Part shown: piece by piece, positions 11,890 through 27,925 of the stretch
Layout of the letters: every line of letters starts with the position of its first letter
Numbering within the stretch: position 1 is the stretch's first letter
Source: Natronomonas aquatica
GTDB taxonomy: Archaea; Halobacteriota; Halobacteria; Halobacteriales; Haloarculaceae
Direction of reading: 5' to 3'
DNA: 38,270 bases
NCBI RefSeq assembly: GCF_024449025.1
Contig: NZ_JAHLKM010000020.1
Coordinates: 1-38,270, forward strand
Program-made: the position numbers and the translations under genes
The notes under the pieces: generated by a model
Seen by the model: the letters and a program-made list of their open reading frames with translations, nothing else
What the model was told of the DNA's origin: nothing
The model's database searches: none

Positions 11890-13461
11890 ATGGTGGCAAC
11901 AGGTAGGGAACAGTTCAAACCGACGCTACCACCTGAGGACGCAGTACCGGCAACCATACTTGCCGTTCCGGGAACGGTTATCCAAGAGTACGCCGTTGCC
12001 GATGTACTCGCCGACGCAATCGAGGCGGTTGATCCGGATCTCCTCATCGCGACACCGCCCAACGAAGCGGCCGTTTCCGGGCCGCACGTCGCCAAGCTAG
12101 TCGATGTTCCAGTAATCATCCCGAAACGGAACGCAACGCCAACGGTTGAGGTCATCCCGGAGGCTGAGGTCGGGATCATCGCAACGAATACCCCGACGGA
12201 TCTCCCTGCGACTCCAGCTGACCTTGCTCGTGATCTTCCCAACGCCCGCAATCTCGATGGAATCGATCACGGCTATCTCGTTACTGATCGGTTGGAACTC
12301 TCGATCGATCCGCATCACCGACGTACCCGGCTCGAAGGCATCGAATCATACACAACTGAGGTTCCGACGGCGTGGCGGACGGATGCTATCACGCATCTTT
12401 CGACCCGACTTCGTCCGGACTACACGACAGTCCACCGATACACCGATGGCGGAGATGATACCACCGAACGCACGCTTTCGATTCACGGCATCGGACTCAC
12501 AACGGGTAATCTCGGTGCTGGAGTCGATGAGTCCACACAAGAACTCGCCGTAGCGAAGGTGTACCGTAATGGTGCCGTTTGTACCACCTCGTACGATCCA
12601 ACGAACTTTGGGCTCCGAGGTCTCGACCAGGTCGGCCAAACGCGTGCCGAACGGCTCCGAAAACGTGGCTACGATACACGAGAGGCTGTCTCCAGAGCGG
12701 AGGTACACGAGATCGCAGATATCCGTGGCCTCGGGCAGTCCACAGCAGAGACAATTCAAGCATCGGCCACCGCCGTCGCGAACGGCGAGGTCGTTCCGAT
12801 CGGCGATGGGGCTGTTCCGGATGGCGATCCGATTTTCATCGATATCGAGACGAACGGGCTCAACGGCTCAACTGCGTGGCTTATAGGAGTTCTCGATGGC
12901 GATGCGCGGACGGGGACATATCTGCCGTTCAGACAGCGTACTCTCTGGAAGCCAGCCGAGCATCTCGAATCATTCCTGACGTGGCTCGCTGGGACGGCGG
13001 CTAATCGACCGGTTGTCGCGTGGAACGGGTACGACTTCGATTTCCCGATCATCGCCCGACAGCTCGAAGAACACCACCCCGACCGTCTCGAAGAGTGGCG
13101 TACCAGATATCGATTTGATCCGCTGTCATGGGCGACCCAGCAGGATAATGCAACGCTCCCGGGGCGGAGTAACAAGCTGGAGGCGGTTGCCACAGCGCTC
13201 GGTTGGGAGCCACAAACAGGCGAGTTGGACGGGCAAACAGCCGCCGAACTCTATAATGCGTGGGCGACCCAGTCCACTGGAGCCGAAGCCCGATTCACAC
13301 CCGACTGGAAGCGGTTTGAATCGTATTGTGAAGACGACGTGCGGGCTCTGGCCACGATATATGAAGCGCTCGGCGAGGCGTCCCGTCGGCCGCCTGGTAC
13401 GGCAACTAACCGATCGACGACAGAGACGACGTCCCAAGGATCCCTCTCGGATTTCTCATGA
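11890..13461 (+). CDS. mrfB: MrfB/YprB-like DEDD exonuclease with HhH region
   Basis: A 523-residue protein. Residues 1-200 are a divergent N-terminal domain. Residues about 245-300 form a helix-hairpin-helix-like region (VGQTRAERLRKRGYDT, then IADIRGLGQSTAETIQ). Residues about 312-492 are an RNase H-fold exonuclease: FIDIETNG with Asp318 and Glu320, AWNGYDFDFPII (379-387) and YCEDDVRAL with Asp483. This matches the YprB-like ribonuclease H family, whose Bacillus member MrfB works with helicase MrfA in repair of mitomycin C damage. The stop overlaps the start of the MrfA-like helicase (ATGA at 13458-13461), so the two are translationally coupled as in the bacterial pair. Catalytic residues are intact. 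That it acts on DNA crosslinks in this archaeon is inference. Confidence 0.82.
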   Translation: MVATGREQFKPTLPPEDAVPATILAVPGTVIQEYAVADVLADAIEAVDPDLLIATPPNEAAVSGPHVAKLVDVPVIIPKRNATPTVEVIPEAEVGIIATNTPTDLPATPADLARDLPNARNLDGIDHGYLVTDRLELSIDPHHRRTRLEGIESYTTEVPTAWRTDAITHLSTRLRPDYTTVHRYTDGGDDTTERTLSIHGIGLTTGNLGAGVDESTQELAVAKVYRNGAVCTTSYDPTNFGLRGLDQVGQTRAERLRKRGYDTREAVSRAEVHEIADIRGLGQSTAETIQASATAVANGEVVPIGDGAVPDGDPIFIDIETNGLNGSTAWLIGVLDGDARTGTYLPFRQRTLWKPAEHLESFLTWLAGTAANRPVVAWNGYDFDFPIIARQLEEHHPDRLEEWRTRYRFDPLSWATQQDNATLPGRSNKLEAVATALGWEPQTGELDGQTAAELYNAWATQSTGAEARFTPDWKRFESYCEDDVRALATIYEALGEASRRPPGTATNRSTTETTSQGSLSDFS

Positions 13462-15920
13462 GCGATCAGCCACAATCACGGCAAAACGTCCTGTCGAAGG
13501 ATGCACTTGAAGCGACGTTTCCCGAATACGACGATCAAATCGTCGACAGCGAGCGGCTCCCACCGCGGGAGGCAACGACGGTCCCTGCTGAGGCGGTGCT
13601 TCGGGACGAGTTGGCCAGGGAGTTGGACAACGATCTGTTTAGCCATCAGGCAACAGCGCTGGAGCGGCTTGCTAACGACGAGAACGTGGTGGTAACGACA
13701 CCTACGTCCTCGGGCAAAACATGGATTTACACGCTGCAAATCGCCAGAAACCATCTCGACGATCTGGATGCAACTGCCCTCCTGTTGTATCCGATGAAGG
13801 CGCTCACGCGGGATCAGGAACGAGAGCTTAACGACAAGCTTCGCGGTGATTGGAACACCGATCCAACTATCGGTGTCTATGACGGTGATACATCGAACGA
13901 CCGCAAGCGACAGATTCGGGAGAACGCGAACGTCATTCTGACAAATCCTGCGGGACTCAACGTCTATCTCCCCCGTCACGCGAAAGACAGCGGCTGGCAG
14001 CGGTTCTACAATAATTTGGAACTGATCGTCGTCGATGAAGCACACGAGTATTCAGGCGTCACGGGAACGCACGTCGCGTGGATTCTCCGGCGACTGCGCC
14101 GGCTCTTACAATACTACGATTCCGATCCACAGTACGTCATGACGACAGCGACTATCGGAAATCCGGCGACGCACGCCAATCGCCTCACGAGTGAGCAGTT
14201 CGCTGTCGTTGATGAAGACGGGTCGCCGCGAGGCGCCCGGGATGTTGTCCTTTGGAAGCCCCCGATCGACGAGGAAGCTCTCGAGACCGCCAACGAGGCG
14301 AATATCGATCCCGCCGAGGCCGAAGCCGACTTTGAGGAGTTCCGTATGTCTGCGGGTAATGAAGCGGCGAAGGTAGCTGCACATCTCGTATTGAACGGTC
14401 GACAAACGCTCCAGTTCTGTTCGGCGAGACAAGCAACGGAGATCGGAGTCAGACAGATCGAGTCAGCGGCTCGTTCTCACGACGAATCCGGCTATGTAGA
14501 GGCAAAAGCCTACCATGCGGGGCTCGGCAAGCGTACCCGTCGCGGTATCGAACAGTCGCTGAAACTGGGCGAGCTCGACGTTGTAGCCTCGACGAACGCG
14601 CTCGAACTCGGTATCGATATCGGGTCCGTCGATGCGACGGTCACGACCGGATATCCAGGCACGCAACAGTCGTTTTGGCAACAGATCGGTCGGGCCGGCC
14701 GTGGGACGTCGGATGCGCTATCGGTCCTCGTCGGCGGGAGCGATGCGATGGATGGGTACATTATGGATAATCCCGGCTATCTGTTCGACGATAACGTCGA
14801 AGACGCCGTCGTCTCGATCGATAATAACCGGGTGTACGCCGATCACTTACTCGCTGCCGCCAAAGAACGGCCCCTCACTGAGGCCGATACTGGTGTCCTT
14901 GGTGATCCGAAGCGGTTCAGAGAGGTCGTCGAAATGTGGCAGGACGCCGGCGTCCTCGAACGGACCGTCGATCTCGAATCCGGGGTGCTCTATACCGGCG
15001 ACCGACGCCCAGAGTCCAGAATTTCCATGTACTCGACGAGTGGGACTGAGTTTATCGTCCGCTCGACAGACGACGATATCGATCACGAGCCGATCGCCGA
15101 GGAACGCGCGTATCGCGACTATCATGAAGGTGCGTTGTTCTATCACGATGGCCAACAGTACGAGGTGATTGATGTCGAAAAATCTGGAATAAAGCCACGG
15201 GTTCTCGTCGAGCCGAAGAACTCCGGTCTGTATACGCAGACACTTTCGGAAAAACGAATCACGAACCTTCGCCCGGAACAACGCCGCGAATTTGACGGCG
15301 GATACGGGCTTCACTTCGGTCGTGGGACGGTCACCATCACCTACAATCAATTTTTGATCCGGGAGATCAGTACCGGCAACGTAGTCGACGGACCGCTCCC
15401 AACCGGATCGCCACCGCTCACACTCGAAACGGAATTACTGTGGGTCACACTCCCGGAGACCCACATCGACGAGACCATTTCAGCCCTCGAGGAGCCGCTG
15501 TTGACACCCACTGACCGGGCCGAACGCGATGCTGGCTTGACGGAGCCGGCACTGTACACCTATGCTGGTGGGATCCACGCCGCCGAGCACGGAGTGATTC
15601 AGCTGTCACCGCTAGAACTGATGATCGACAACTCGGACATCGGCGGCCTCTCGATGCCTCAACATCCTGACGGCAGCATTCCCGGCCCCGTCTGGTTCGT
15701 CCATGACGGTATCGACGGCGGAATCGGGTTTTCTCGGGCGATTTACGAGAACTTCGAGATCATCGCTGAACGAACGCGTGATCACCTCGAGACCTGTGAT
15801 TGTCAACGGCGGCGTGGCTGCCCTCTCTGTGTCATGTCCGAACACTGTGGTAACGAGAACGACCCTTTGGATCGTGTCGTCGGCCAGCGTATTCTCGAAG
15901 ACGTATTGAATGCAATATAG
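13458..15920 (+). CDS. mrfA: MrfA/YprA-like DEAH-box helicase with C-terminal four-Cys zinc site
   Basis: An 820-residue SF2 helicase: Q-motif-like FSHQATALE (61-69), Walker A TPTSSGKTW (81-89), motif Ia YPMKALTRDQ, Walker B VVDEAHEYSG (DEAH at 193-196), motif III TATIGNP, and in the second RecA domain STNALELGIDIG and QQIGRAGRG. The C-terminal third matches the DUF1998/MZB region: TCDCQRRRGCPLC, then SEHCGN and ND.LDR. This cysteine arrangement is the zinc site of MrfA-type helicases. Length and order agree with Bacillus YprA. It overlaps the exonuclease gene by four bases, so helicase and nuclease probably act as one machine at DNA damage. Confidence 0.9.
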   Translation: MSDQPQSRQNVLSKDALEATFPEYDDQIVDSERLPPREATTVPAEAVLRDELARELDNDLFSHQATALERLANDENVVVTTPTSSGKTWIYTLQIARNHLDDLDATALLLYPMKALTRDQERELNDKLRGDWNTDPTIGVYDGDTSNDRKRQIRENANVILTNPAGLNVYLPRHAKDSGWQRFYNNLELIVVDEAHEYSGVTGTHVAWILRRLRRLLQYYDSDPQYVMTTATIGNPATHANRLTSEQFAVVDEDGSPRGARDVVLWKPPIDEEALETANEANIDPAEAEADFEEFRMSAGNEAAKVAAHLVLNGRQTLQFCSARQATEIGVRQIESAARSHDESGYVEAKAYHAGLGKRTRRGIEQSLKLGELDVVASTNALELGIDIGSVDATVTTGYPGTQQSFWQQIGRAGRGTSDALSVLVGGSDAMDGYIMDNPGYLFDDNVEDAVVSIDNNRVYADHLLAAAKERPLTEADTGVLGDPKRFREVVEMWQDAGVLERTVDLESGVLYTGDRRPESRISMYSTSGTEFIVRSTDDDIDHEPIAEERAYRDYHEGALFYHDGQQYEVIDVEKSGIKPRVLVEPKNSGLYTQTLSEKRITNLRPEQRREFDGGYGLHFGRGTVTITYNQFLIREISTGNVVDGPLPTGSPPLTLETELLWVTLPETHIDETISALEEPLLTPTDRAERDAGLTEPALYTYAGGIHAAEHGVIQLSPLELMIDNSDIGGLSMPQHPDGSIPGPVWFVHDGIDGGIGFSRAIYENFEIIAERTRDHLETCDCQRRRGCPLCVMSEHCGNENDPLDRVVGQRILEDVLNAI

Positions 15921-16032
15921 GCCGGAAAAACACCCGTGGGAACTGTATGCCCTACGGACACCAGGATCTCCACGAAGTGTCTGTAGAGTACGTCCCCGGA
16001 ACGGGAAGCCTCGGGGGTTGCTCCGGTGACCA

Positions 16033-18135
16033 TCACGAGTACTGCACGAGACTTGCGTCAGTTCGATCTGCGAGGTACGAGCGGATATCCTGTTCGCGCC
16101 ATCCAAGCGGGGAAAGTACGCTTTCGGCAGCCCGGTAGAGCTGTGTTTCATAGAACGTTGTATCGTACGTGTCCGGCTGTTCGGATGCCAGCCGGATCCG
16201 ATCGACTGTCGTAGCGGTATCGTCCACGACGACAAACGAGACGTGTTCACCGGGTGATCTCGCGTATCCCTGCTGTGTGGCGCGGGTGGCTGCGGCGGCA
16301 GTTCGTGTGCTTCGCGTATATTCCTCGGCGTGTTTCGAAAGCCGAATCTCGATCACGAGATCATCGGTATCAACAGCATCTGATCGTAGATCCTCAAGTC
16401 GTGCTGCGAGGCGGTCACAGACTCGTTCTGGACTCCGGTGTGCATCAAGCGTCTCGATGAGTTCCCGTTGCGTCTCTTGGATGAACGTCGGTGTGCTTCG
16501 TTGTCGGCACTCGATCCCGCGGTACTTGAACTCGCTATCGTCTGCTCGACCGAAGTACTTCGTCAGGGCGCCAGCGTCGCTGTTGCGCTGGGGAACGAAG
16601 GCGATCCAGTCGTAGGCCGCTTCGTGTTCCAGGCGGATATCGACCGCGTCAGTGACCAACTCACAGAGTTCCTCAGGCGCTGTCTGCTCGCTATCGGGGC
16701 GTGGTGTTACCCACAGGCTGTCGACGATCCCGTGGACGATCTCCCAGCCGTTCGCCTCCAGGATGGCCTTCGCCTCAAGCAAAATCTCGCGGGCGAAGGC
16801 GTTGATCGCCTCGTGGCATTCGATCCGACCGAACTTCGCGTTCGAAAACCCCTGATACCCGAAACAGGAGACGAGAATCCACTTGATCGCGCTTGAGCGA
16901 CCCTCTAGTTCCGTTCGGCGTTCCGGGTCGGTCGTCTCGCGGAGTTCCCGCTTGATCGCGTCACGGTCCTCGATGAGCGGTTCCAACACGTCGGGTAGAT
17001 ACCCGCGTTCCGGACAGAGGCTATAACCGAGGCCCGGCACGTCATCGCGGTCCGGGTGGCAGTCACAGCGGACTGTTTCCGGACTGATGTTCAGCGTGAC
17101 GATGATGTTCGGATAGAGACTCGAGAAATCGAGTTCGTGGACGTCTTCGTGGAACCCGACATCGGGAGCGAACGTGAAGCCGCCGCGGTCGGCATCGTGG
17201 AGCTGCTGCATCGACTTGAATCGCTCGTGGCGCCAGGAACGCCACGGGACCAGGACGTTTCGCTCGTAAGCGTGGTGGATCTGAATCGCAGTGAGAATCC
17301 GCCCGATACTCGCCCAGGCCAATTCCTGAAGCGGAAGTCCTGACCGTTCGACCAGATCAAGGCAGCCGTCGAGGTTCGTCTCGTCCCACATGAACGTGTT
17401 CGAGCGATCGATGAGTACTCGCCCGGAGACGTTGTACCGGGCCGGTGAGTGTCCGACCTGACCGTAGCTTTCATACGTCGATTGGCCGGCCAGTTGTTCG
17501 TATCCGGAACGTCGGCCGAGGTCGAACTGTTCGTTGCCGCGTTGGTCGGCCAACTCGTACAGTTTCGGGATGAGACGGCTGGATTGTAGGCTCAATATGT
17601 CCGGGTCGATCTGGTTCAGTCGTTCGGTGATCGTTTCGAGGATTGCCGTTTCGCCGTCGACGGTGACGCCGTCGACAGTCACGGTTCGGAGATTGTTGCG
17701 AGCGAGTTGTTCTGGTGGTGCGTCTATCGAGACGGTTCGTAACGATCGTTCAGGCACCGGAATGCGTCCGGTTTCGAGGCAGAATCGGAACTCGCGCGTG
17801 AAATCGACGTTGTAGAGTCGATAGGTGCCCGGCGAGCCCCACCCTGCGACGGTGCTGGCAACGTCGGATACGGCGTCGATACGACCGATATCGGCACGTA
17901 AAACGGGTCCGGCATCGTGTCGAAAGCCAGTCCGCCACTCCTCGACGGCCGTCCGTTCGACGGCGGGGAGTTCGGCAAGGTGTCGTCCGACCGTTGCCAG
18001 TCGGTCCTGATCGTGATCGGGTGTCCCGACATAGATCGTCGCTGTGTACGATTCGATTCGTGCTGCTGTTGCGCCATCGTCGGTCAATAACCACGCGAGA
18101 ACATCGCCATCGCGGTAATCGAATTTGTACGGCAT
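16033..18135 (-). CDS. polB2: PolB2-type family B DNA polymerase with altered catalytic and exonuclease motifs
   Basis: A 700-residue polymerase. Motif A is intact (DFSSLYPNII, 336-345). Motif B is recognisable (AIKWILVSCFGYQGF, Lys418, Gly426-Tyr427). Motif C, normally YGDTDS, reads HGIVDSLW (468-475): the first metal-binding Asp is replaced by Ile while the second (Asp472) remains. The region aligning with Exo II (DPDILSLQSSRLIPKL, 178-192) lacks the Asn and Phe-Asp of an active proofreading site, and the Exo I region (TVSIDAPPE) lacks the Glu. Archaeal PolB2 proteins are known for such motif decay, yet crenarchaeal PolB2 is damage-induced. This is the last gene of a three-gene operon and lies 15 bases after the small charged protein. 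It is convergent with the MrfA-like helicase. Confidence 0.85.
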   Translation of the reverse strand: MPYKFDYRDGDVLAWLLTDDGATAARIESYTATIYVGTPDHDQDRLATVGRHLAELPAVERTAVEEWRTGFRHDAGPVLRADIGRIDAVSDVASTVAGWGSPGTYRLYNVDFTREFRFCLETGRIPVPERSLRTVSIDAPPEQLARNNLRTVTVDGVTVDGETAILETITERLNQIDPDILSLQSSRLIPKLYELADQRGNEQFDLGRRSGYEQLAGQSTYESYGQVGHSPARYNVSGRVLIDRSNTFMWDETNLDGCLDLVERSGLPLQELAWASIGRILTAIQIHHAYERNVLVPWRSWRHERFKSMQQLHDADRGGFTFAPDVGFHEDVHELDFSSLYPNIIVTLNISPETVRCDCHPDRDDVPGLGYSLCPERGYLPDVLEPLIEDRDAIKRELRETTDPERRTELEGRSSAIKWILVSCFGYQGFSNAKFGRIECHEAINAFAREILLEAKAILEANGWEIVHGIVDSLWVTPRPDSEQTAPEELCELVTDAVDIRLEHEAAYDWIAFVPQRNSDAGALTKYFGRADDSEFKYRGIECRQRSTPTFIQETQRELIETLDAHRSPERVCDRLAARLEDLRSDAVDTDDLVIEIRLSKHAEEYTRSTRTAAAATRATQQGYARSPGEHVSFVVVDDTATTVDRIRLASEQPDTYDTTFYETQLYRAAESVLSPLGWREQDIRSYLADRTDASLVQYS

Positions 18136-18150
18136 CAGTCTCGGCCTCGA

Positions 18151-18426
18151 TTACTCACGTTCGGTCTCGAGTTCCGCTTCGAGCGTCTCGAGTCGGTCTT
18201 CGAGTTCATCGAGCCGTGTCTCCTGTTCGAGATCGATCGAGATCAGTATCGGAAACAGCGGTTCGTCGTGATTGAGGTAGCCGCCGGCATCGGCATGGGC
18301 CTGTGCGTATTCGAACAGTCGCCCGAATCGCGGTTGGTCACGGCGTCGGAGTGCGCGTTTGAAATCGTCCCAGCGTCGTTCCAGCGCTTGGATGGTGTCC
18401 CGGTAGGTCGGGTTAGTTCGACCCAC
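18151..18426 (-). CDS. Small charged helical protein in the polB2 operon
   Basis: A 91-residue, strongly charged protein. The middle has FGRLFEYAQAHADAGGYLNH and the C-terminus is a heptad-like coiled coil rich in Glu and Leu (TRLDELEDRLETLEAELE). It overlaps the upstream RecA-like gene by 14 bases and is followed after 15 bases by polB2, so the three are one transcript. No known family is recognised. A coiled-coil tail next to a polymerase suggests an assembly or accessory subunit, but that is inferred only from position. Confidence 0.75.
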   Translation of the reverse strand: MGRTNPTYRDTIQALERRWDDFKRALRRRDQPRFGRLFEYAQAHADAGGYLNHDEPLFPILISIDLEQETRLDELEDRLETLEAELETERE

Positions 18427-19093
18427 GGAGCATCACCTCCGGCTGACCGGGGGCGGCAACGGTTGCACGCTGTGTGAGTACGTGTTCCCAGAACGCAAGC
18501 GTCGTCTGGACGCCCCCGTCTTCGAGGGGATAGACGAGCGTCTCGAACTGATCGCCGACGAACCGGGGCCCGAATTGTGTCGCTTCACACCGAATCGTTT
18601 CATCGACATGTCGGGCGATCGGTGCGCTGAGGGCGTCCTGCTGATGGCATGTTAGCACAACCGGGGTTTCGGTCTCCCGACAGCGGTTCGTGAGCGTCGA
18701 GACCGCCGCCCGAAGCAGTTCCTCGGCGTCGACGCCTTGGATGTCGTCGTCGCGGTACATCGCATCGACTGCCGGGGCGACGACGAGTGCCGTCTCTGCA
18801 GTAACCAACTCGGCGGCTCGGTCGAGAAGTACAGCGTGTTGATACGCGGTAAAACCCCTGGCGACCTGAATGCGATCTAATATCCGTGTGCTTGGTGCGA
18901 CGCGGGCGAGCGTATCCGTCCGGGCGTGTCCGGCTGCGTCGATCCAATATCCAGGACCGGCGTTCATCAACAGGTGGTCTAAGACCAGGGCCTGCAGTGG
19001 ACCTGTTGAGGTTTCATCGGTGTTTAATAAGTAACAATCAGTACCGAGAGACGGCAAGGTTGGCGTTGTCCGGGTGGCGGTTGCTGGACGCAT
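18413..19093 (-). CDS. RecA/RadA-fold protein lacking a Walker A motif
   Basis: A 226-residue protein, first gene of the polB2 operon. Its layout resembles the core of RadA/RadB: an N-terminal strand, a segment where the P-loop would be (LLNTDETSTGPLQALVLDHLL) but without GxxxxGKT, a YWIDAAGHARTD strand, RIQVARGFTAYQHAVLLDRA, a Walker B-like strand TALVVAPAVDAMY, and TPVVLTCHQQ as in the RecA L2-preceding strand. The missing Lys and Thr predict no ATP hydrolysis. Inactive RecA-family proteins next to PolB2 are, as I recall, a known archaeal arrangement; here the assignment rests on fold pattern. A TATA-like cttatc lies about 28 bases upstream of the ATG at 19093. Confidence 0.65.
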   Translation of the reverse strand: MRPATATRTTPTLPSLGTDCYLLNTDETSTGPLQALVLDHLLMNAGPGYWIDAAGHARTDTLARVAPSTRILDRIQVARGFTAYQHAVLLDRAAELVTAETALVVAPAVDAMYRDDDIQGVDAEELLRAAVSTLTNRCRETETPVVLTCHQQDALSAPIARHVDETIRCEATQFGPRFVGDQFETLVYPLEDGGVQTTLAFWEHVLTQRATVAAPGQPEVMLRGSN

Positions 19094-19298
19094 AGTCAGC
19101 TAAAGAAAGAGGTGCACGATAAGCCGTAGTGCGTGCTTTCCGGAATTTCCGATTCCCCTATCCTACCGACCCCGTCTGGAGGTGAGAATCAATCCCGAGT
19201 ATCCGAGACATTCCTGTTGAAATCCTCGATCGGAGATGAGAACTGTCGAAGAACTCACCACTGGCAGGTCTGGTTTACCGTATCCTGGATGAAACCAT

Positions 19299-19778
19299 CT
19301 ATATCCACAGAAAAACAAGAAACCCAGCGAGCATCGAGACGGTGAGGAGGACTTGTATCGCCGTTGAAGCAAGCATCCCGATAGCTGTGACCGCCGCAGT
19401 TCGTCCCCCTCGGCGGACATCACCGTGCCGAAGATACTCCAAGAAGAACACCGCTCCAACGACACCGAGGAGAGCGCCGAGCGGACCGAGGACGAACAGG
19501 AGTCCGATCGCCGCGATAGCGGCAATAATGGTCGTTCGAATCGATGCACCGCCGATCCGTGCCGAGAGTGCGCTTTCGAGGAGATCGAATACGACGGTGA
19601 AGACGCCCAAGATTACGAATCCGAGAAACGCGATAGTTCCGATTTCCCCTGTTACCATCCAGTAGTATGCAACTCCAAGTGTTGACAACGCCCCACCCGG
19701 GATCAGCGGCACGAAACTCGCGGCAATACCGACGAGCAACAGTATGATCGTGACGACGATCGGATCAAGCGGGAGCAT
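19299..19778 (-). CDS. DUF456-type membrane protein
   Basis: A 159-residue membrane protein with four to five hydrophobic helices and glycine-rich segments: LLLVGIAASFVPLIPGGALS at the start, the FLLESALSARIGG-like loop, and the LLFVLGPLGALLGVVGAVF glycine-zipper helix. These fit the DUF456 family, whose function is unknown. The frame is open further upstream to 20003, but that extension is Arg/Ser-rich and overlaps the Orc gene, so the ATG at 19778 (MLPLDPIVV) is the sensible start. It lies between two DNA-maintenance genes and is probably transcribed on its own. Confidence 0.8.
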   Translation of the reverse strand: MLPLDPIVVTIILLLVGIAASFVPLIPGGALSTLGVAYYWMVTGEIGTIAFLGFVILGVFTVVFDLLESALSARIGGASIRTTIIAAIAAIGLLFVLGPLGALLGVVGAVFFLEYLRHGDVRRGGRTAAVTAIGMLASTAIQVLLTVSMLAGFLVFLWI

Positions 19779-19930
19779 CCACACACAAAACGACGAGGAA
19801 CGACGAAACGGTGTCGGAGTGGTTCTCAGGGAAGCCCCCCGGACAATATCCTCTTGATCGTCAGCGGATGAATTCGACGACAGAGGTTTGTCTCTACTGC
19901 CTAGTAGGTCTGAACGGATTTCAGCAGAGC

Positions 19931-20941
19931 CTACGAGACCGACACGGGTCGATACGTGCGCCCGCGGTTCTGCCCTTCGGCGACGATGAGGTTGTACTGA
20001 CACATCTTCGTGAGATAGTTTCGCATCGTCCGTTTCGTCTTTGGATCGTCGACCTGTTCGCGATACATTTCGTATAAGTCGCCAGGAGTGATACTGCCGT
20101 GATTGGTGATTATCTCGTACAGTTGTTGCTGATGTGGAGTCAGCGTCTCGACGGTCCTTTGCTGGACTTCCGATCTCGCTTCGGGGATCGAATCGGTGAT
20201 CGCGGCCGACGTGATCTGGTCAGTGCCGTCCCGTTCGGCTCGCTGGGCTGCGTTCCGGAGGATGCCGATCGCCACGCGGGCGTCACCGGCTGCAGCGTCG
20301 GCGATCCGTTCTAGTTGTGACCGGCCGATCGCATCGGCAGTGAGACCACGGTCTACACGAGCCTGCAAAATCCCGACCAGTTCGTTGAGTCCGTATTTGT
20401 CAAACCGGATGCGGGTAGTGTTCATAAGCCGGCTAGAGAGCCGTTCGTCGATCCGGGCGAACAACTCCTCTTCGCGGTTCGCGATGAGCACCATCGAGAT
20501 GTTCGGGAGGGTGTACAGGTCGTACAGGACGTCCATGTCTTCGAGTTGATCGACCTCATCGAGAACGACGACATATGGCGGCCCGTCGTACTGTCGGAGC
20601 CGTTCGAGCAGTTCGTCTTTCGGTGTCGATTGTCGGTGGACATCGAGTGTCTGGCCGATGCCTTCGAGGATTCGGTAGATGGTGCGAAAGCGCGTGTAGT
20701 TCTGCCAGCAGTTGACGTACTGGTGTTCGATGTCGATGACTTCCCGCCGAAGGCGCTCGACGATGAACTTCGCGAGACAGGTTTTTCCGGTACCCGAGGG
20801 ACCGAAGAGAAAGGCTGTCTCCGCTGGTTCATCGCGGGTGATCGGCTCCAACGCGTTGGAGAGTTGGTTCGCTTCGGGATCGCGGTGGACGACCTCCTGG
20901 GGGACGAAATCGGCTTGCAGGACACGCGCATCCCGAATCAT
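19931..20941 (-). CDS. Orc1/Cdc6-family AAA+ ATPase
   Basis: A 336-residue AAA+ protein: Walker A LFGPSGTGKT (45-54), Walker B VVVLDEVDQLED (124-135), sensor-1 IANREEEL, the arginine-containing ERLSSRLM stretch, and a C-terminal winged helix from TLTPHQQQLYEIITNHGSI to the end (about 265-336). This fits archaeal Orc1/Cdc6. It is shorter than the usual replication initiator (about 400 residues) and its N-terminus is brief. The frame stays open to 21121, but the ATG at 20941 (MIRDARVLQADFVP) fits the family start. It is divergent from a DEDD exonuclease gene. It could be an origin-binding initiator or one of the Orc paralogues of haloarchaea that serve other roles. Confidence 0.88.
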   Translation of the reverse strand: MIRDARVLQADFVPQEVVHRDPEANQLSNALEPITRDEPAETAFLFGPSGTGKTCLAKFIVERLRREVIDIEHQYVNCWQNYTRFRTIYRILEGIGQTLDVHRQSTPKDELLERLRQYDGPPYVVVLDEVDQLEDMDVLYDLYTLPNISMVLIANREEELFARIDERLSSRLMNTTRIRFDKYGLNELVGILQARVDRGLTADAIGRSQLERIADAAAGDARVAIGILRNAAQRAERDGTDQITSAAITDSIPEARSEVQQRTVETLTPHQQQLYEIITNHGSITPGDLYEMYREQVDDPKTKRTMRNYLTKMCQYNLIVAEGQNRGRTYRPVSVS

Positions 20942-21124
20942 TACCGACGTCTTTTTCGCGCAGGGTAATAAGCGGAAGTGAGTTGTTTCCGATTTTTCCG
21001 ATACTCGCTCGAGTGACAAACGGACAAAGCGGACGATCGCTCCAGATCCGGCTCGATAATCGGAATTCCGGAAACTGCTCGCATAGCCTGATACCGACGA
21101 GTAACCGATACGCCGGTACAACCG
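20942..21124. promoter_or_regulatory. Divergent promoter region between Orc and exonuclease; short repeats
   Basis: The 183-base spacer contains the direct repeat TTCCGAT-TT-TTCCGAT-like tract around 20987-21002, several further CCGATA copies, and TCCGG...CCGGA inverted sequence near 21051-21074. Orc genes often lie beside their origin, but I do not see the usual long G-tract origin-recognition boxes. It is more safely described as a shared regulatory region. Confidence 0.35.
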
Positions 21125-21847
21125 ATGGGGACGAAACTCACGCCAGTCGCGTTCGATATCGAAACGTCCGGCTTCGAAACTGACGCGGTCGTCACGGCCG
21201 TCGGATTCGCCCTTCCACTCGGCTGTCGGGTCATGATTAACACCGACCAGCGGCCAGCCGATCGAGCGGCATTAGAGACAACTCTCGGGGATCGATTCGA
21301 CATAACGCTCAAACTGAGCTGCCACCGGACGGAACAGGAACTGCTCAAATCTCTCACCGAATTCGCAACCGATTCGTTGACGCCGAAGGAGTATCTGCTC
21401 GTTGCGTACAACGGCGAACGGTTCCGAAGTGGCTTCGACCTGCCGTTTCTTCGAACCCGCTACACGCTTCAAGACGCTGCCTGGCCGTTTATTGATGTGT
21501 CCTACGCGGACCTGATGCCGATCTTCCAACATCGCTTCAACACGCAACTCGATGATGAACCCGCTGCTGATCTCGAGGGCGTCTACGAGACGATCGTCGG
21601 CAATGAATTGACAGCAGTTGATCCGTTCGAAGATAGCAACCAGGCCGTCGAAGCCTTCGAAGACGGCGCCTTTGAGGCACTCTTGCGGCACAATATCGCA
21701 GATATTCTACGGACAAATGCGTTGGCCGCTGTTGGAGAGCAGTACTGTGGAAAATCGGAGTTTGATGTGAAATCTCTGACACCAACCGTTTCCGATTCGA
21801 CCGTCTTTCGGTCGAGCGCGCACGAATCGGTTCGCCATATCTTTTAG
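21125..21847 (+). CDS. Stand-alone RNase H-fold (DEDD) 3'-5' exonuclease-like protein
   Basis: A 240-residue protein of the polymerase-proofreading exonuclease fold. Exo I is VAFDIETSGF (Asp11, Glu13), Exo II is YNGERFRSGFDLPFLR (Asn96, Asp105) and Exo III is RHNIADILRT (Asp193). All four acidic positions of a DEDD nuclease seem present, so it should be active. It is divergent from the Orc gene, a few kb from a PolB2 whose own proofreading motifs are lost. It could therefore supply exonuclease activity in trans, which is a hypothesis from context. It stands alone at the end of the repair block and is convergent with the Rieske gene. Confidence 0.75.
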   Translation: MGTKLTPVAFDIETSGFETDAVVTAVGFALPLGCRVMINTDQRPADRAALETTLGDRFDITLKLSCHRTEQELLKSLTEFATDSLTPKEYLLVAYNGERFRSGFDLPFLRTRYTLQDAAWPFIDVSYADLMPIFQHRFNTQLDDEPAADLEGVYETIVGNELTAVDPFEDSNQAVEAFEDGAFEALLRHNIADILRTNALAAVGEQYCGKSEFDVKSLTPTVSDSTVFRSSAHESVRHIF

Positions 21848-21941
21848 TACGCGTTATCGGATAATCAATCCCTGGTTGCTACGGGCTGTGGTCCGCCCCC
21901 GTTGAGTGATTTTTCCTACTTCCGCTTGGCCGTGAGTTAGC

Positions 21942-22364
21942 TCACAACTGGAGATGTGAGGTCGAATCCGGCGCGTCGTCGTCATCATCATCACTCGGTC
22001 CGTCATGGAGAAACCGCACGTCGTCGTCAGTAAGATACACCTGACCGTCTTCGACCTCGATTTCGACAGAAAGCAGCGTCGTCTCCGCGGCCTCACCGCT
22101 GTCACAGTAGCCCGAACAACTGTCGAATGTAGAGCCGTGTTTCGGACAGATGATCTCGCCATCACGTGTCACGACGCCGATCTCTTCGCGGTACAGCCGC
22201 TGTTGCTCGTGGGTACAGTTGTTGACCCACGCCTGCACCGGCGGTTTCTCGTTTTCGTCACACGGAATCAGAAAGACTTCCGTTTCCTCACCATGGGCGT
22301 CTCGAACTGTAAACAGATAGCCGTCCTTGCGGACATCTGCGACGCTCGCAATTCGATAGCGCAT
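21942..22364 (-). CDS. Rieske [2Fe-2S] protein, soluble
   Basis: A 140-residue protein with the Rieske cluster motif: NCTHEQQRL (Cys-x-His) and, about 19 residues later, CPKHGSTFD (Cys-x-x-His). It therefore binds a [2Fe-2S] cluster through two Cys and two His. There is no transmembrane anchor, so it is a soluble ferredoxin-like carrier rather than part of a bc1 complex. An acidic C-terminal tail with a run of six Asp follows the domain. The ORF is open upstream to 22478, but the ATG at 22364 (MRYRIASVADV) is where homology-like sequence begins. Confidence 0.85.
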   Translation of the reverse strand: MRYRIASVADVRKDGYLFTVRDAHGEETEVFLIPCDENEKPPVQAWVNNCTHEQQRLYREEIGVVTRDGEIICPKHGSTFDSCSGYCDSGEAAETTLLSVEIEVEDGQVYLTDDDVRFLHDGPSDDDDDDAPDSTSHLQL

Positions 22365-22583
22365 GCTACCGATTCGGGCGGAGAGACAACTAAAAATTGC
22401 GCTACGAGAGGATTTGAGAGCAGGATCTGGCTGTCGCCGAACGGATATCAGACTTGCAGCACTACCATTTTCAAGCATACCCAGTCGAGACGGTCACTCT
22501 GACGACGAACGATATACTCGTATGGGCCATGTAGTCGCGGGATTGACACTCGCAGTTGTCCTTGCCATGGCTGACCTTCTTGA

Positions 22584-22751
22584 TCACCACCACCACGGTT
22601 CCCTCGCTCGATGATGCGGAGTGAAAACGGTCAGTTTCCGGTCTCTGGACGACAGCAGGTTGACCGGGCGGTTCCTCTCGATCAGCCCCCTGTCGTTGGC
22701 GAGGAGTATCTCCTCGTCGTCTTCCGGGATGGGCGTGGTGACCGTCTTCAT
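22584..22751 (-). CDS. Possible small protein, 55 residues
   Basis: An ATG at 22751 opens a 55-codon frame with acidic N-terminal composition (MKTVTTPIPEDDEEILLAND) ending in three Trp codons before TGA. Third positions are GC-rich in the first 40 codons, as in real genes here. No family is recognised. The other-strand frame at 22522-22614 overlaps it and is less convincing. Confidence 0.3.
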   Translation of the reverse strand: MKTVTTPIPEDDEEILLANDRGLIERNRPVNLLSSRDRKLTVFTPHHRAREPWWW

Positions 22752-22929
22752 CGTTACGATTCACAGCGTTACGATACGCAATAGATGTAACAGATGATTC
22801 CTTCAGGCCGTAGCATTCTCGTTCTCATCCTGTTCGAGCCGGACACGATTTACAGAATACGACCACTGAATAGCCTATGGGCAGATCATCCGTTAATAAA
22901 TACGATCGGTGTATTCGAGATGGTGGGGT

Positions 22930-23532
22930 TTATTGGTTTTCGAGCGCATCGAGGATGCACGCAGCGGCGATCACCGCTTCTTTCGGGACGGTGCTGGCAT
23001 CGTCTATACTGACCGTGTAGGTGTCCCGTAGCGAGAACTTGCCTTTGATATCGCCGACATGATCGCCGTCCGCGTCGAATATCTCGTACTTGTTCGGAAT
23101 CAGGTTCGTAACCGAGATGACGTGCCTGAGCGCCGAGAGCAGCTTGTTCTTGGATCGAATAGTCGCCAACTGATCCCCGGAATCGGGGTCTCGAATCGTC
23201 CAGTTCTCCATGAAAAGCGAGAGGTCCTCATCAAGGACGATGACTTCGTCGCCGGTACCCGCATCCATCATAGCGTAGCTACCTGCGACATCCAGAATAC
23301 CGCCCGCTTTCACCGTGAATGCGTCATCGCCGTCACCGGTGACGAACGGGAACTCCTCTTTCATTTTGAACAGTTTCTGCTTCCCGCGCAAGACGATATC
23401 ACCAGCGCTATCCCGGACAACGTACTTGTTCCGGATCCTTGGCTGCTTGACCACGTAACGGTCGTCATTCAGATCGACTGTAGAGATGTTGTACGTGGTC
23501 GACGCCGACTCGGTAGTGGAGGGCTCGGGCAT
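22930..23532 (-). CDS. LURP-one-related / tubby C-terminal-like protein
   Basis: A 200-residue beta-rich protein. It shows the LURP-one pattern: YVVKQPRIRNKYVVRDSAG, VLRGKQKLFKMKEEFPFV, then AGSYAMMDAGTGDEVIVL, WTIRDPDSGDQLATIRSK, a helix, and NKYEIFDADGDHVGDIKGKF before a final helix AVIAAACILDAL. Plant and bacterial members are thought to bind membrane lipid or act in stress, but archaeal function is unknown. The ATG at 23532 is preceded by an AT-rich tract and a 16-bp inverted repeat at 23570-23585. Confidence 0.82.
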   Translation of the reverse strand: MPEPSTTESASTTYNISTVDLNDDRYVVKQPRIRNKYVVRDSAGDIVLRGKQKLFKMKEEFPFVTGDGDDAFTVKAGGILDVAGSYAMMDAGTGDEVIVLDEDLSLFMENWTIRDPDSGDQLATIRSKNKLLSALRHVISVTNLIPNKYEIFDADGDHVGDIKGKFSLRDTYTVSIDDASTVPKEAVIAAACILDALENQ

Positions 23533-23569
23533 AGGGGAATGTTGAGCACGCTCGAAAAAAGATTTGTGC

Positions 23570-23585
23570 TTATGTTAAAACATAA
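23570..23585. promoter_or_regulatory. Inverted repeat TTATGTT-AA-AACATAA upstream of LURP-one gene
   Basis: A perfect 7-bp inverted repeat separated by two A lies between the divergent LURP-one-like and Hsp20 genes. It sits about 38 to 53 bases before the LURP-one start, just upstream of where its TATA/BRE should be. This is a position typical of a regulator-binding site in haloarchaeal promoters. The binding protein is unknown. Confidence 0.45.
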
Positions 23586-23714
23586 TGGCTCAACGGCTTA
23601 TCTGTCGCATGAAAGCTACAGCCCGATCTACGGACTGACTTCAGATATTAGCTAGCTGAATCGCTCCGTGTTCCGCGCCGAAGGCTTATCCGTGTAACTG
23701 GCCTATCAATAGTG

Positions 23715-24068
23715 ATGAGACGGAACTCGGACGACGACGAGGATCCCTTTGCCGGGGTCTTTGATCGGACCGACGGAATGCTATCCGGAATGGCGGACGA
23801 GAAAACAGCGCCCGTCGATATTCACGAGTACGACGACGAACTCCGGGTCGTCGCTGATCTCCCCGACGCCACGCTGGATGATATTGACATCCAGTGCGAT
23901 GGCCGATCATTAGCAATCCGCGTGGCAGCGGAACCGCATCCGTTCGTCACACGCGTTGATCTACCGGCATACGTCGACGAGCAATCAGTACAGACGAGTT
24001 TCAATAATGGCGTTCTTGAGGTCACACTCGATCGCGACACCGATCCTGCAAACATCGGCTTCCAATAA
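23715..24068 (+). CDS. Hsp20/alpha-crystallin family small heat-shock protein
   Basis: A 117-residue protein. The N-terminus is short and acidic (RRNSDDDEDPFAGVFD). From residue about 33 an alpha-crystallin domain follows: APVDIHEYDDELRVVADLPD, IDIQCDGRSLAIRV, VTRVDLPAYVDEQSVQTSFN and NGVLEVTLD. The pattern of DLP, SFNNGVLEVTL is diagnostic for Hsp20/GvpH-type chaperones. No gas-vesicle genes are nearby, so it is a general holdase. A GTG at 23712 is possible; the ATG three bases later is preferred. A ggcttatcc TATA-like box lies about 26 bases upstream. Confidence 0.85.
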   Translation: MRRNSDDDEDPFAGVFDRTDGMLSGMADEKTAPVDIHEYDDELRVVADLPDATLDDIDIQCDGRSLAIRVAAEPHPFVTRVDLPAYVDEQSVQTSFNNGVLEVTLDRDTDPANIGFQ

Positions 24069-24237
24069 AAACGCGCAAGCGACCACATCGGACCAAACGG
24101 GTACAGGAAGGCCAGCCTCGTCAGAGGCAGACAGTCCCCCAGCGAAGAGTGGAACACAGGGGCCGATGCGAACCGTAATAAGGCAGAGAGGGGATATTGC
24201 TGTACGGTTTGTCCGACGGGAAGGGGGAGCCTCCACG

Positions 24238-24526
24238 TGCATCGGCGGTCGTCGTCCGGGCGTACCTGTCGGCTTCCTGTGGACCATTTCCCGAACGTCA
24301 ACAGCCACCCTGGGCACTGCTCGAGGGTGGTTTCGTTTCGTTCAAATGTCTCGGTAAGGCGTTCCTCGAAGGAACCAGGGCGCTCGGTCGAAATATTCGT
24401 TATCGACTGATCCGGTTCGAGCTCGTCGGGAATGCCCGGCTCTACGAACAGTGGAGAACCGCCGCCGACCGTCACAAACAAGACGGTAACGACTACGACC
24501 GTTGCGAGTCGATACCGATCGAACAT
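24238..24526 (-). pseudogene. Remnant of a gene for a membrane/exported protein
   Basis: An ATG at 24526 with a TATA-like taaaatac about 26 bases upstream opens a frame starting with a hydrophobic segment (MFDRYRLATVVVVTVLFVTV) and an acidic stretch (PGIPDELEPDQSITNISTE, FEERLTETFERNETT). After about 75 codons the composition turns Arg/Trp/Ser-rich and runs antisense into the Hsp20 gene. The front half therefore looks like a real signal or anchor segment and the back half like shifted frame. Function is not recognisable. Confidence 0.35.
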
Positions 24527-24699
24527 CGGGGAGGATCGAGGAAAAGTATTTTACCATACGAAACTGTTGGCTGGCGCTGGCACCCTGCTCTTTGGTGTAG
24601 TAACTGTTCTATGACTCCCCCATGAGTTATCACTTTTCTGTTCATCATGACCAAGTGACTCAACAGTACCTGCGTTTTTAGCTTGTAGGAACCCCTAGA

Positions 24700-24730
24700 T
24701 TTAATACATTCTTCAGATCAATCACAGCTA
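24700..24730 (+). promoter_or_regulatory. Leaderless promoter of the dihydropyrimidinase gene
   Basis: A TATA box (tttaataca, about 24700-24708) lies about 26 bases before the GTG at 24731, placing the transcription start at or next to the start codon. Confidence 0.5.
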
Positions 24731-26113
24731 GTGACTGTTGATACAATTATCGCAGGCGGAACATTAGTAACGCCAAAAAAAGCATTCGAGGCTAGCATCG
24801 CGATCGATGGAGAAAGTATAGTAGCCGTTGGCCGAGAAGACAACCTTCCAGAGGCCGACGATCGTGTCGATGCCACCGGGAAAATAGTGATGCCCGGTGT
24901 TGTGGACCCCCACGTTCATATTGACGAGGTTCCTGAGAACCGCGCGGGTACTGTACCCACAGAAACAGCTGCTGCCGCACTCGGTGGTGTGACGACGTTT
25001 ATTGATTTCGCGTTCCAAGGCGGTGATCGCCAGATTTCTGACGAATCCAAAGACTTGGTCGATGGAATTGAGCACAAAAAATCGAAGCAAGACCAAAGCT
25101 ATATTGATTACAGTCTTCACGGCGTCCTTCATCGTGAAAGCCCTAGCACATTTGAAGAGTTAGAGCCGGCTATCGAACAAGGGGTAACGTCTTTCAAAAT
25201 GTTTATGTCGAATTATGAAGTTGGAATCTCAAACGGATTTTTGCTGGAAGCGTTTGAAGAGATAGCAGGTTTAGATGCAGTTGCCGCGGTGCATACAGAG
25301 GACCCCTCCATCTGTAACTTCCGGACTGAGAAATTTAAGCGTGAAGGTCGGGGAAAGCCAAGCGACTACCCGGATTCACGACCCGACTATGCAGAAGCAA
25401 TAGGGGCGGAGACTGCTCTACGAGCGGCTGTTGAAACTGGTGTCAAATACTACGGTGTACATACTACCTGCAGGAAAGCCGCTGAGGCTATCAGTCAGTT
25501 TCAGAGAGATCAATCGAGAATCCGGGCAGAAACATGCACCCATTATACAGCACTCACTCGCGATCTTCATGAAAAAATAGGAAACCGCCCACTAATAGCC
25601 CCACCACTTAGAACAGAGGACGATCGAAACGCGATGTTCGAGTATCTAAATAACGGAACACTGAGTATTGTTTCGACAGACCACTCGGTCTATCACGAGG
25701 AATATAAAGAAGTTGATAATTGGTGGGATGCACCGTTCGGAGCCAACTCTATCCAGTATAGTTTGCCAGTATTTCATGAAGTTGCGATAAATCAGCGGGG
25801 ATACTCGTTTCCGTTCCTCGTTGATGCGATGTGTGCTACCCCAGCAGAAACATTCGGTCTACAACAGAAAGGGACGCTGGATATTGGTACTGATGCAGAC
25901 GTAGTGGTTTTCAATCCGACTGGAGGCAAAAAAATAACTTCGGAAGATAACGCCTCAAATTCGACGTTTAGTATTTATGAAGGAATGAGTGTTAGCGGCG
26001 CAGTTGAGAGAACGTATGTACGTGGACAATTAGTGGCGGACAGCAGTACAATCGTTGCCGAGGAAGGGACAGGAGAGTTCATACAGCGTGATATCCCTAC
26101 TTGGGAGAATTAA
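24731..26113 (+). CDS. Dihydropyrimidinase / hydantoinase family cyclic amidohydrolase
   Basis: A 460-residue amidohydrolase of the dihydropyrimidinase-hydantoinase-allantoinase group. Metal ligands are visible: HVH (61-63), the lysine expected to be carbamylated in TSFKMFMSNY (Lys156), His188 in AAVHTEDP, His244 in YYGVHTTC and Asp317 in VSTDHSVY. The reaction is ring opening of a cyclic diamide to an N-carbamoyl acid. The C-terminal small beta domain (GTDADVVVFNP) is present. The next gene, convergent, encodes an N-carbamoyl amidohydrolase-type enzyme that would take the next step. Codon and base use are clearly more AT-rich than in flanking genes, which suggests recent acquisition. Exact substrate (dihydropyrimidine, hydantoin or allantoin) cannot be told. 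Confidence 0.9.
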   Translation: MTVDTIIAGGTLVTPKKAFEASIAIDGESIVAVGREDNLPEADDRVDATGKIVMPGVVDPHVHIDEVPENRAGTVPTETAAAALGGVTTFIDFAFQGGDRQISDESKDLVDGIEHKKSKQDQSYIDYSLHGVLHRESPSTFEELEPAIEQGVTSFKMFMSNYEVGISNGFLLEAFEEIAGLDAVAAVHTEDPSICNFRTEKFKREGRGKPSDYPDSRPDYAEAIGAETALRAAVETGVKYYGVHTTCRKAAEAISQFQRDQSRIRAETCTHYTALTRDLHEKIGNRPLIAPPLRTEDDRNAMFEYLNNGTLSIVSTDHSVYHEEYKEVDNWWDAPFGANSIQYSLPVFHEVAINQRGYSFPFLVDAMCATPAETFGLQQKGTLDIGTDADVVVFNPTGGKKITSEDNASNSTFSIYEGMSVSGAVERTYVRGQLVADSSTIVAEEGTGEFIQRDIPTWEN

Positions 26114-26185
26114 TCTCGTCCGGGCCAATAATAAAGGAAGCACCGGCATTCGTGAGCCAGAACGGATGGAGAATTTTCCAAACAT

Positions 26186-27445
26186 TCATTTCTCATTCAC
26201 ACCGGCAAGGGTCGTAATCGCATCCAGTAGTACGTTCCCGGCCTGTGCACAATCTTCCCAGTCTGTCCACTCCTGGGGGTTATGTGAAATCCCGTCTTGA
26301 GAAGGGACAAAAAGCATTCCTGCATCGGTCACACGAGCGATATTCATGCTATCATGTCCGCCTCCAGAAGGCAGGTTTATGGTTTGTATATCTCGATTTT
26401 CACTTCCTCTTTTTATTGCGTTAATGCACCGATCGCTCATAGATACAGGATCTATTGTTCGATAAGTGTCAAATTCGGTTACCAGATCGTGTTCTTTACC
26501 GATACGAGCAAGGCTTTTTTTAGCCCGATCGGCGATTTTTTCCATTACTTGAAGATCCGTGTCACGAAAATCAGTATTAATTTCAACTCGTCCAGGAACA
26601 ACGTTGCGGGCATTGGGATCAACTTCGATATTACCAACAGTTGCAACGGCGAATTCGCTTTCGGTTTCGACGACCTCACGAGCGATTTCATTAACAGTTG
26701 AAATAAATTCAGATGCACCTAATAACGCATCCGAACGGTCATACATGTGTGTCCCACCCGCATGATTAGAGTCACCAATTATTTCAATATTGCAATTTTT
26801 GATACCGGTGATAGCTGAAACGATTCCGAGTGGAATATTTGACCGTTCCAGTGTGGTCGACTGTTCAATATGTACCTCGAACCAAGCATCCCAGTCTTCC
26901 ACAGTAAGAGTGCCGTTGCCTTGGAACCCAATCTGAGTCAAATATTCCTTTAGACTCTTTCCGTCGTCGTCGGTCAAGGCAAGCGCCTCTTCGACGCTCA
27001 GATCGCCAGTTGCAACGGAGGACCCTAGCGTACCGACATCGAACCGTCCTCCTTCTTCTTCTGTAAAGGAAACGACGACAATCGGACGGTCCGGTTGTAC
27101 ACCTTCTTTTTGCATAGTTCGTACAGCCTCAAGCGCCGAGTAAACCCCCAATGGTCCGTCAAATATCCCACCGTTAGGAACAGAATCAAGATGGCTACCA
27201 GCAGCGATCGGAGATGCATCAGGATCTGTCTCGTCAGCTACCCATCGACCTGCAATATTTCCAACAGCGTCAATAGTGACGCTCATCCCGAGCTCGTTTA
27301 GCTGTTCAACAAAGTGTTCTCGAGCTCTTTGATCAGCTTTTGAACCAGTAAGCACGGTGCGTCCGTACCCTTCTTCTACTTCAATAGCCCCAAACTCTCC
27401 ATTCGTTAACAAATGCTCACGAAGACGGTTCTCACTCACATGCAT
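26186..27445 (-). CDS. M20-family N-carbamoyl-amino acid hydrolase / allantoate amidohydrolase
   Basis: A 419-residue zinc amidohydrolase of the hydantoinase/carbamoylase family. Seen are GSHLDSVPNGGIFDGPLG (His85, Asp87, Asp96 as metal ligands), VVSFTEEEGGRF with the catalytic Glu pair, WFEVHIEQSTTLE, the dimerisation segment with NHAGGTHMYDRSDAL, and LPSGGGHDSMN near the C-terminus. It hydrolyses an N-carbamoyl bond to release ammonia and CO2 plus an amino acid, following a hydantoinase. The frame extends 21 bases further upstream, but ATG 27445 (MHVSENRL) has a TATA box (tataaaatt, 27471-27479) at leaderless distance. The gene is AT-rich like its convergent partner. Confidence 0.88.
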   Translation of the reverse strand: MHVSENRLREHLLTNGEFGAIEVEEGYGRTVLTGSKADQRAREHFVEQLNELGMSVTIDAVGNIAGRWVADETDPDASPIAAGSHLDSVPNGGIFDGPLGVYSALEAVRTMQKEGVQPDRPIVVVSFTEEEGGRFDVGTLGSSVATGDLSVEEALALTDDDGKSLKEYLTQIGFQGNGTLTVEDWDAWFEVHIEQSTTLERSNIPLGIVSAITGIKNCNIEIIGDSNHAGGTHMYDRSDALLGASEFISTVNEIAREVVETESEFAVATVGNIEVDPNARNVVPGRVEINTDFRDTDLQVMEKIADRAKKSLARIGKEHDLVTEFDTYRTIDPVSMSDRCINAIKRGSENRDIQTINLPSGGGHDSMNIARVTDAGMLFVPSQDGISHNPQEWTDWEDCAQAGNVLLDAITTLAGVNEK

Positions 27446-27763: not shown

Positions 27764-27892
27764 TCAAATGATCTCAACGAGATTGTAGCCAGCGTCCGGA
27801 TAGTGGGCTTCTCGCTCCTCGTAACCGCTTTCGAACGCGCGGTCAGAGTTCTCTTCCATTCCGTCACTCAACGGTTCATCGTTGCCAGTCAT
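27764..27892 (-). CDS. Possible small acidic protein or gene fragment
   Basis: An ATG at 27892 opens a 42-residue frame (MTGNDEPLSDGMEENSD, later YPDAGYNLVEII) with strongly acidic haloarchaeal composition. It lies between the carbamoylase promoter and an IS1182-type remnant. It might be the C-terminal fragment of a gene cut by the element. No family is recognised. Confidence 0.3.
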   Translation of the reverse strand: MTGNDEPLSDGMEENSDRAFESGYEEREAHYPDAGYNLVEII

Positions 27893-27925
27893 ACTTGTTC
27901 GTAGAGACTGAGGGCACCGCACAAA

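Follow-up and report, generated by a model that had tools for sequence, protein, structure and literature searches.

A haloarchaeal PolB2, iRadA and PPB2 operon with a family-wide motif C variant and a tandem promoter element shared with an adjacent Orc1/Cdc6 gene

The PolB2 operon of archaea was described earlier as one coding for an inactivated B-family DNA polymerase (Rogozin 2008, PMC2527604); PolB2 was later linked to an inactive RadA and to the small arCOG07300 proteins (Makarova 2014, PMC4104785), and a model of all three, the PolB2:iRadA:PPB2(3) mutasome, has been published (Timinskas et al. 2025, PMC11791011). The purified Sulfolobus enzyme Dpo2, a PolB2 with an HxxxD motif C, is a robust, exonuclease-free polymerase that extends mismatches and lesion termini (PMC8764526), and in vivo it is the sole source of targeted mutagenesis (PMC7390963). 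Here, we analyze a stretch of 38,270 nucleotides (nt) from Natronomonas aquatica (the window, on contig C22 of a 3.2 Mb genome in 82 contigs that is haloarchaeal by its relatives), in which a minus-strand operon (16033-19093) codes for iRadA, PPB2 and PolB2. From its genes, motifs and predicted folds, we identify this operon as a haloarchaeal member of the known PolB2, iRadA and PPB2 translesion-polymerase complex. We consider the reading as a whole, in which such a mutasome is transcribed from an element-bearing promoter with a neighboring Orc1/Cdc6 protein as the proposed regulator, to be highly probable; gene content, conservation, motif state, folds, the operon overlap, and the conservation and placement of the element come from the present analysis.

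The first gene of the operon (18413-19093, minus strand) specifies iRadA, a 226-residue protein of the RadA/RAD51 fold that lacks both Walker A and the Walker B aspartate. It is followed by the gene for PPB2 (18151-18426, minus strand; 91 residues, arCOG07300-type), which starts with GTG and whose product joins an N-terminal MGRT arm to a C-terminal coiled coil, and by that for PolB2 (16033-18135, minus strand), a B-family DNA polymerase of 700 residues. A sequence-only reading of the window had given these coordinates, this strand and this gene order and had taken the three proteins to be made together, and it is borne out: the 3′ end of iRadA overlaps the start of PPB2 by 14 nt (18413-18426, minus strand), as is common to 33 of 61 homologous loci, and only 15 nt separate PPB2 from PolB2. 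Just upstream of the PPB2 start, inside the 3′ end of iRadA, lies a Shine-Dalgarno-like AGGTG. Many iRadA proteins end in PEV...G, which we infer to be so because the same codons hold the ribosome site and the start of PPB2. Homologues, sampled here from one phylum, are present in 187 of 293 genomes of the order, a count that supports the reading as a PolB2 operon. In this genome polB2 occurs as one intact copy, and a search of the genome for extra iRadA or PPB2 copies returned none, its weak matches being background.

PolB2 scores 1015.8 bits against NCBIfam NF004418, a PolB2-type subfamily with a cut-off of 692, and matches Pfam PF00136; its AlphaFold model (predicted local distance difference test score, pLDDT, 91) matches archaeal PolB structures with an E-value of 6e-42. 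Motif A (ELDFSSLYP with D336; 17110-17136, minus strand) and the motif B region (SSAIKWILVSCFGYQGF with K418 and FGY; 16846-16896, minus strand) are intact, as the sequence-only reading had it; across 100 PolB2 copies of the phylum, D and F of motif A are present in all, as are K, W, F, G and Y of motif B. Before the GG of the YxGG/A loop stands the D(K/R) motif (D316-R317; 17185-17190, minus strand), with D in 97 and R/K in all 100 copies, which touches the PPB2 arm in the published model (PMC11791011). Motif C reads HGIVDS (residues 468-473; 16717-16734, minus strand), and its context VHGIVDSLWVT (residues 467-477) aligns to YSDTDGFFAT and YIDTDGLYAT of the KOD-type and Deep Vent polymerases. 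When the profile is aligned with B-family polymerases of solved structure, His thus stands for the tyrosine and Ile for the first catalytic aspartate, and the second, D472 (16720-16722), is retained, in agreement with the claim that one of the two had been replaced. That this makes a motif "broken" in this particular gene is not supported: the motif is altered, but HxIVD is near-invariant in the phylum family (His and the second Asp in 100/100, Ile in 96/100, Val in 98/100), so that neither a local breakage nor anything noteworthy for this one copy is involved. The check that would have overturned the claim, an alignment of motif C over PolB2 homologues, gave no DTD or DTDS among the 100; a canonical DxD has been reported in some PolB2 proteins of TACK archaea only (PMC11791011). 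A local mutation or a misalignment is ruled out by the conservation of HGIVD across the phylum.

The exonuclease motifs are degraded, as had been noted. The PolB2 profile does align to the exonuclease domain of the solved PolBs, but it offers nothing to pair with the acidic residues of Exo I (DIE) and Exo II, and a stretch of about 45 residues across Exo III is absent. The protein hence shows neither the YxDTD motif C nor the intact Exo I-III of a canonical active PolB of the PolB1 or PolB3 kind. Such losses, with YxDTD also changed at its Tyr and first Asp, are what one would look for in a catalytically dead PolB2 whose sole part at the replisome is that of a structural or scaffold subunit, the role proposed in 2008 (PMC2527604). 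We consider this quite improbable, as no copy varies in the Asp of motif A, the Lys of motif B or the second Asp of motif C, which is odd for a pure scaffold, and homologues sharing the HxxxD motif are robust polymerases (PMC8764526); the authors of that study identify the second Asp of motif C as the metal ligand. In our preferred reading of PolB2 as a translesion-type polymerase, the window protein is instead a conserved variant rather than a decaying enzyme, since HGIVD is conserved family-wide and the ratio of nonsynonymous to synonymous substitution rates (dN/dS) against its closest homologue is about 0.13. This corrects the impression of decay: the window has a haloarchaeal version of an already described polymerase complex, and it is well preserved. 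A canonical-type PolB of the same genome is coded on contig C29 (347406-349466) within a 1809-residue open frame, where the family match is split in two, with about 1 kb between the parts, a pattern seen with inteins.

In keeping with the claim that the operon leader is a RecA-fold protein without Walker A, both profile and fold tie iRadA to RadA/RAD51. Its profile matches RadA/RAD51/DMC1 (best 1.7e-13) and aligns solely downstream of the P-loop region, the match beginning near residue 33-44 with the N-terminal helical domain absent; the AlphaFold model (pLDDT 81) matches the RAD51/DMC1/RadA ATPase fold with an E-value of 2e-10. Lysine does not occur anywhere in the window iRadA, which rules out a Walker A Lys, and neither the window protein nor the profile alignment revealed a P-loop elsewhere. 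The Walker B Asp position is occupied by a proline (P107) that is conserved in 42 of 45 homologues. The GxxxxGK[TS] Walker A and Walker B Asp of a functional RadA/RAD51 recombinase are therefore both absent. What is conserved lies elsewhere: D52, R79, F81, T82, Q85, G175, Q196 and T198 are invariant in 44 homologues. PPB2, which matches no Pfam family above cut-off, begins with MGRTNPTYRDT, in which G2 and R3 (each 50/52) and R9 (49/50) are conserved. Inspection by eye, with no profile search made, found no QxxLxxFF-like clamp-binding tail at the C-termini of PolB2 or iRadA; a motif of this kind occurs in only some mutasome members.

All three genes are under strong purifying selection, with dN/dS of about 0.09-0.18 in all compared pairs except one. 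This bears on the notion that plasmids and mobile replicons carry the operon as a passenger, decaying or selfish, with no role in host repair. The family is indeed patchily distributed, with several copies per genome, often on plasmids, and stops in some copies elsewhere, but the selection on the three genes, the conserved overlap, the conserved promoter (see below) and the single intact copy in this genome make such a passenger very improbable. We accordingly retain the view of a maintained polymerase complex.

Several observations weigh against that view or narrow it. The literature searched yielded no published assay of a haloarchaeal PolB2; the polB2 of Halobacterium is non-essential (PMC1906834) and that of Haloferax volcanii is reported as deletable (PMC7776575), which are compatible with the complex but supply no phenotype. 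Two Halobacterium ultraviolet (UV) papers (PMC1224876, PMC2556686) make no mention of polB2, so damage induction in haloarchaea is unproven, and the binding of the Orc protein to the promoter element described below is a proposal from promoter co-occurrence. Finally, some PolB2 loci have no detectable iRadA nearby or no PPB2 arm, and the full pentamer is therefore not universal.

Two sets of relatives depart from the window arrangement. In one PolB2 subgroup (L014, L016, L017, L021-L023, L026, and the larger regions L104-L107), PPB2 starts with MMQSS or MSHTN and has lost the MGRT arm, no upstream iRadA is detectable, and PolB2 retains HGIVDS; the joint loss of arm and iRadA is what one would predict for an arm lodged in the cleft between PolB2 and iRadA. 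A second PolB2 clade (~55% identity; L034-L060, L309), which includes the Halobacterium pNRC200 copy, is often without adjacent iRadA and PPB2 and has other orc genes near.

What seems new at this locus is an element shared by the promoters of the operon and of the Orc1/Cdc6 gene; the literature searched contained no earlier report of it, which is weak evidence of novelty. The element is a 15-bp tandem repeat, TCGGAAnnnYCGGAA, lying 14 nt before a TATA-like YTTAT. The copy of the operon, a candidate operator with its TATA box, reads TCGGAAATTCCGGAA-N14-CTTAT (19119-19152, minus strand), and the iRadA ATG follows 44 nt after the element. An exact match, TCGGAAAAATCGGAA-N14-CTTAT (20968-21001, minus strand), stands upstream of the Orc1/Cdc6 gene. 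The pattern TCGGAANNNYCGGAA with YTAT at the same distance has three exact matches in the whole 3.2 Mb genome, none with one mismatch and six with two. The third exact copy (contig C34, 21984-22017, minus strand, in the region 12000-28822) has the same 14-nt spacer and an ATG at +44 and precedes a cluster of small genes ending in an 870-residue primase-like open reading frame (ORF); read by eye rather than by family search, this cluster possibly is a mobile element using the host promoter element. A weak, possible further copy with 2-nt spacing, TCGGAATTCCGGAA (21060-21073, plus strand), has no clear YTTAT and lies before an RNase_H_2-like gene.

The element is matched with up to two mismatches in 24, and with up to three in 29, of 58 iRadA upstream regions gathered by homology; of 2,900 shuffled regions none match at up to two and 0.3% at up to three. 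About ten of the 58 had been used to see the motif, which makes this test not fully independent, but further regions carry the element too. With at most one mismatch, it occurs in 114 of 293 genomes of the order, against about 11 matches in all for a reversed control pattern, whose sequence make-up differs, so that we rely on the shuffles and on the gap between zero- and two-mismatch matches instead; these two reject a chance origin. Conservation extends beyond the searched pattern, namely to A/T ahead of the first box, C at positions 20 and 22, and G before YTTAT. Of 46 exact matches examined, 24 lie before orc, 12 before iRadA or PPB2, and ten were left unassigned, one of which also proved to precede orc; as these come from selected hits and the relatives are not independent, we attach no significance to the fractions. 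Viral contigs gave 53 matches; only five of them seemed to lie between genes with an ORF downstream, and none of the five seemed related to these loci, so we take them all as background. TCGGAA boxes with 2-nt spacing also precede iRadA in L008, L009, L011 and L013. In two genomes (L232, L235), the exact element stands before near-identical HNH-endonuclease-like ORFs (270-273 residues).

The proposed regulator is a divergent Orc1/Cdc6 paralogue of 336 residues from its ATG (19931-20941, minus strand; TIGR02928 at 197 bits, cut-off 181). It is the lowest-scoring of the few Orc1/Cdc6 loci above cut-off in the genome, the others both being on contig C66, and the same Orc family lies upstream of many homologous operons. 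In Saccharolobus islandicus, the paralogue Orc1-2 is a damage regulator that binds its own and damage-response promoters (PMC9738581). Because the window orc carries the element and the Saccharolobus damage regulator is an Orc paralogue, we propose that the Orc protein regulates itself and that the element serves haloarchaea as operator in a damage response of the Orc1-2 type. In its full form, this would be an SOS-like regulon in which an Orc1/Cdc6 paralogue reads an operator 14 nt upstream of TATA, regulates its own gene, and induces the PolB2 mutasome upon damage, with some mobile elements such as the contig C34 cluster having captured the operator to sense host damage. We advance this tentatively, as a plausible idea that falls a little short of probable.

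The element could instead be an origin recognition box (ORB) of an orc-linked origin. It does adjoin orc1/cdc6, its GGAA half-site resembles the ORB core, and the two orc-upstream copies are inverted (20987-21001 minus and 21060-21073 plus). Haloarchaeal ORBs and origins, however, have a G-string and an AT-rich stretch (PMC3528665, PMC3936714), and here G runs of five or more are lacking, and the sequence separating the inverted copies is not AT-rich (GC fraction 0.55). An origin box would also sit oddly with a spacing to a TATA-like box that stays at 14 nt in front of different genes, one of them iRadA, which lies at least about 1 kb away. The published haloarchaeal features being absent, we set the ORB assignment aside as unlikely. 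A stronger contender is that the element is a real regulatory site read by another factor, such as a TFB paralogue or a TrmB- or helix-turn-helix-type protein, in response to a signal other than damage. The link between element and regulator is a proposal from sequence, and one of the examined exact matches stands before a TFB-like ORF (L242, read by eye rather than by family search). A TFB paralogue participates in the damage response of Sulfolobus. On the other hand, orc itself is the commonest downstream gene among the examined exact matches, as expected for autoregulation, and we hold another reader to be possible, if doubtful.

Taking the Orc-controlled mutasome as our working model, PolB2 would be a proofreading-free polymerase that keeps the essential metal ligands D336 and D472 and carries HxIV instead of YxDT, and it would most likely extend primer ends beyond lesions or mismatches rather than replicate the genome. 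iRadA, with no Walker A through which to bind ATP, would dock on PolB2 and serve there as a fixed RadA-like subunit, and the small coiled-coil protein PPB2 would insert its MGRT arm into the PolB2/iRadA cleft. Transcription would start from the promoter with the tandem TCGGAAnnnYCGGAA 14 nt before the TATA box, and the adjacent divergent Orc1/Cdc6, with the same element at its promoter, may be an autoregulated, damage-responsive regulator of a small regulon. Activity and complex formation are carried over here from the homologues, and damage induction and the identity of the regulator are our predictions. For those homologues, the question posed by the sequence-only reading, whether such a polymerase is a weak translesion enzyme, a structural factor or dependent on partners, is for the most part answered. 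If the element is a damage switch, it offers a testable circuit in genetically tractable haloarchaea, with a single regulator, a single operator and two or three targets, a mutagenic polymerase among them, and would extend the use of an Orc1/Cdc6 paralogue as a damage regulator, known from Sulfolobales, to the euryarchaea.

Between orc and iRadA, the window has a gene for a DUF456 membrane protein (19299-19778, minus strand); in many relatives orc directly precedes iRadA, and the DUF456 gene was found in none of the other loci searched. The RNase_H_2-like gene (240 residues; 21125-21847, plus strand) is divergent and has the 2-nt-spaced TCGGAA tandem upstream of it. A plus-strand pair lies convergent to the PolB2 operon, and in it a gene for an RNase_H_2+HHH exonuclease-like protein (11890-13461) overlaps one for a DEAD helicase with an MrfA Zn-binding domain (13458-15920); it looks like the MrfB/MrfA mitomycin-repair pair.

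Of the described systems, the PolB2 mutasome (PMC11791011) is closest, with the same gene order, an inactive RadA, an MGRT-armed PPB2, the HxxxD motif C, the D(K/R) motif, a lost exonuclease site and orc1/cdc6 nearby; the window proteins differ in being haloarchaeal and in having no PCNA-binding motif at their C-termini that convinces by eye. Sulfolobus Dpo2 (PMC8764526, PMC7390963) likewise lacks the first motif C Asp and the exonuclease motifs, but it is described as the smallest PolB2, its exonuclease domain being further reduced, whereas the haloarchaeal protein has 700 residues and a predicted activity. Nearer in lineage, the non-essential polB2 of Halobacterium NRC-1 pNRC200 (PMC1906834) belongs to the same family at 54% identity and has an orc gene near, and the likewise non-essential HVO_A0065 of Haloferax volcanii (PMC7776575) is of this family too; in the NRC-1 copy, orc4 lies on the opposite strand just downstream with no iRadA or PPB2 annotated within 4 kb, whereas the window has an orc-iRadA-PPB2-PolB2 block. 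With the Orc1-2/DDRE system of Saccharolobus islandicus (PMC9738581) the locus shares a common short element at the promoter of an Orc1/Cdc6 paralogue and at other promoters, but DDRE is ANTTTC, and the window element, a candidate operator, repeats in tandem over 15 bp at a constant distance from TATA. The Halobacterium UV-B motif TTTCACTTTCA (PMC2556686) is likewise short and tandem and sits upstream of TATA, some 50 nt ahead of the start codon; its sequence and spacing are different, and it precedes the damage-induced radA1, top6B, vng17 and vng280, not polB2. Although the polymerase of the Escherichia coli Pol V mutasome (UmuD'2C-RecA) is of an unrelated family and iRadA is no active recombinase, the likeness drawn in PMC11791011 applies here as well, in that an error-prone polymerase is joined by a RecA-family subunit and a small arm-bearing subunit.

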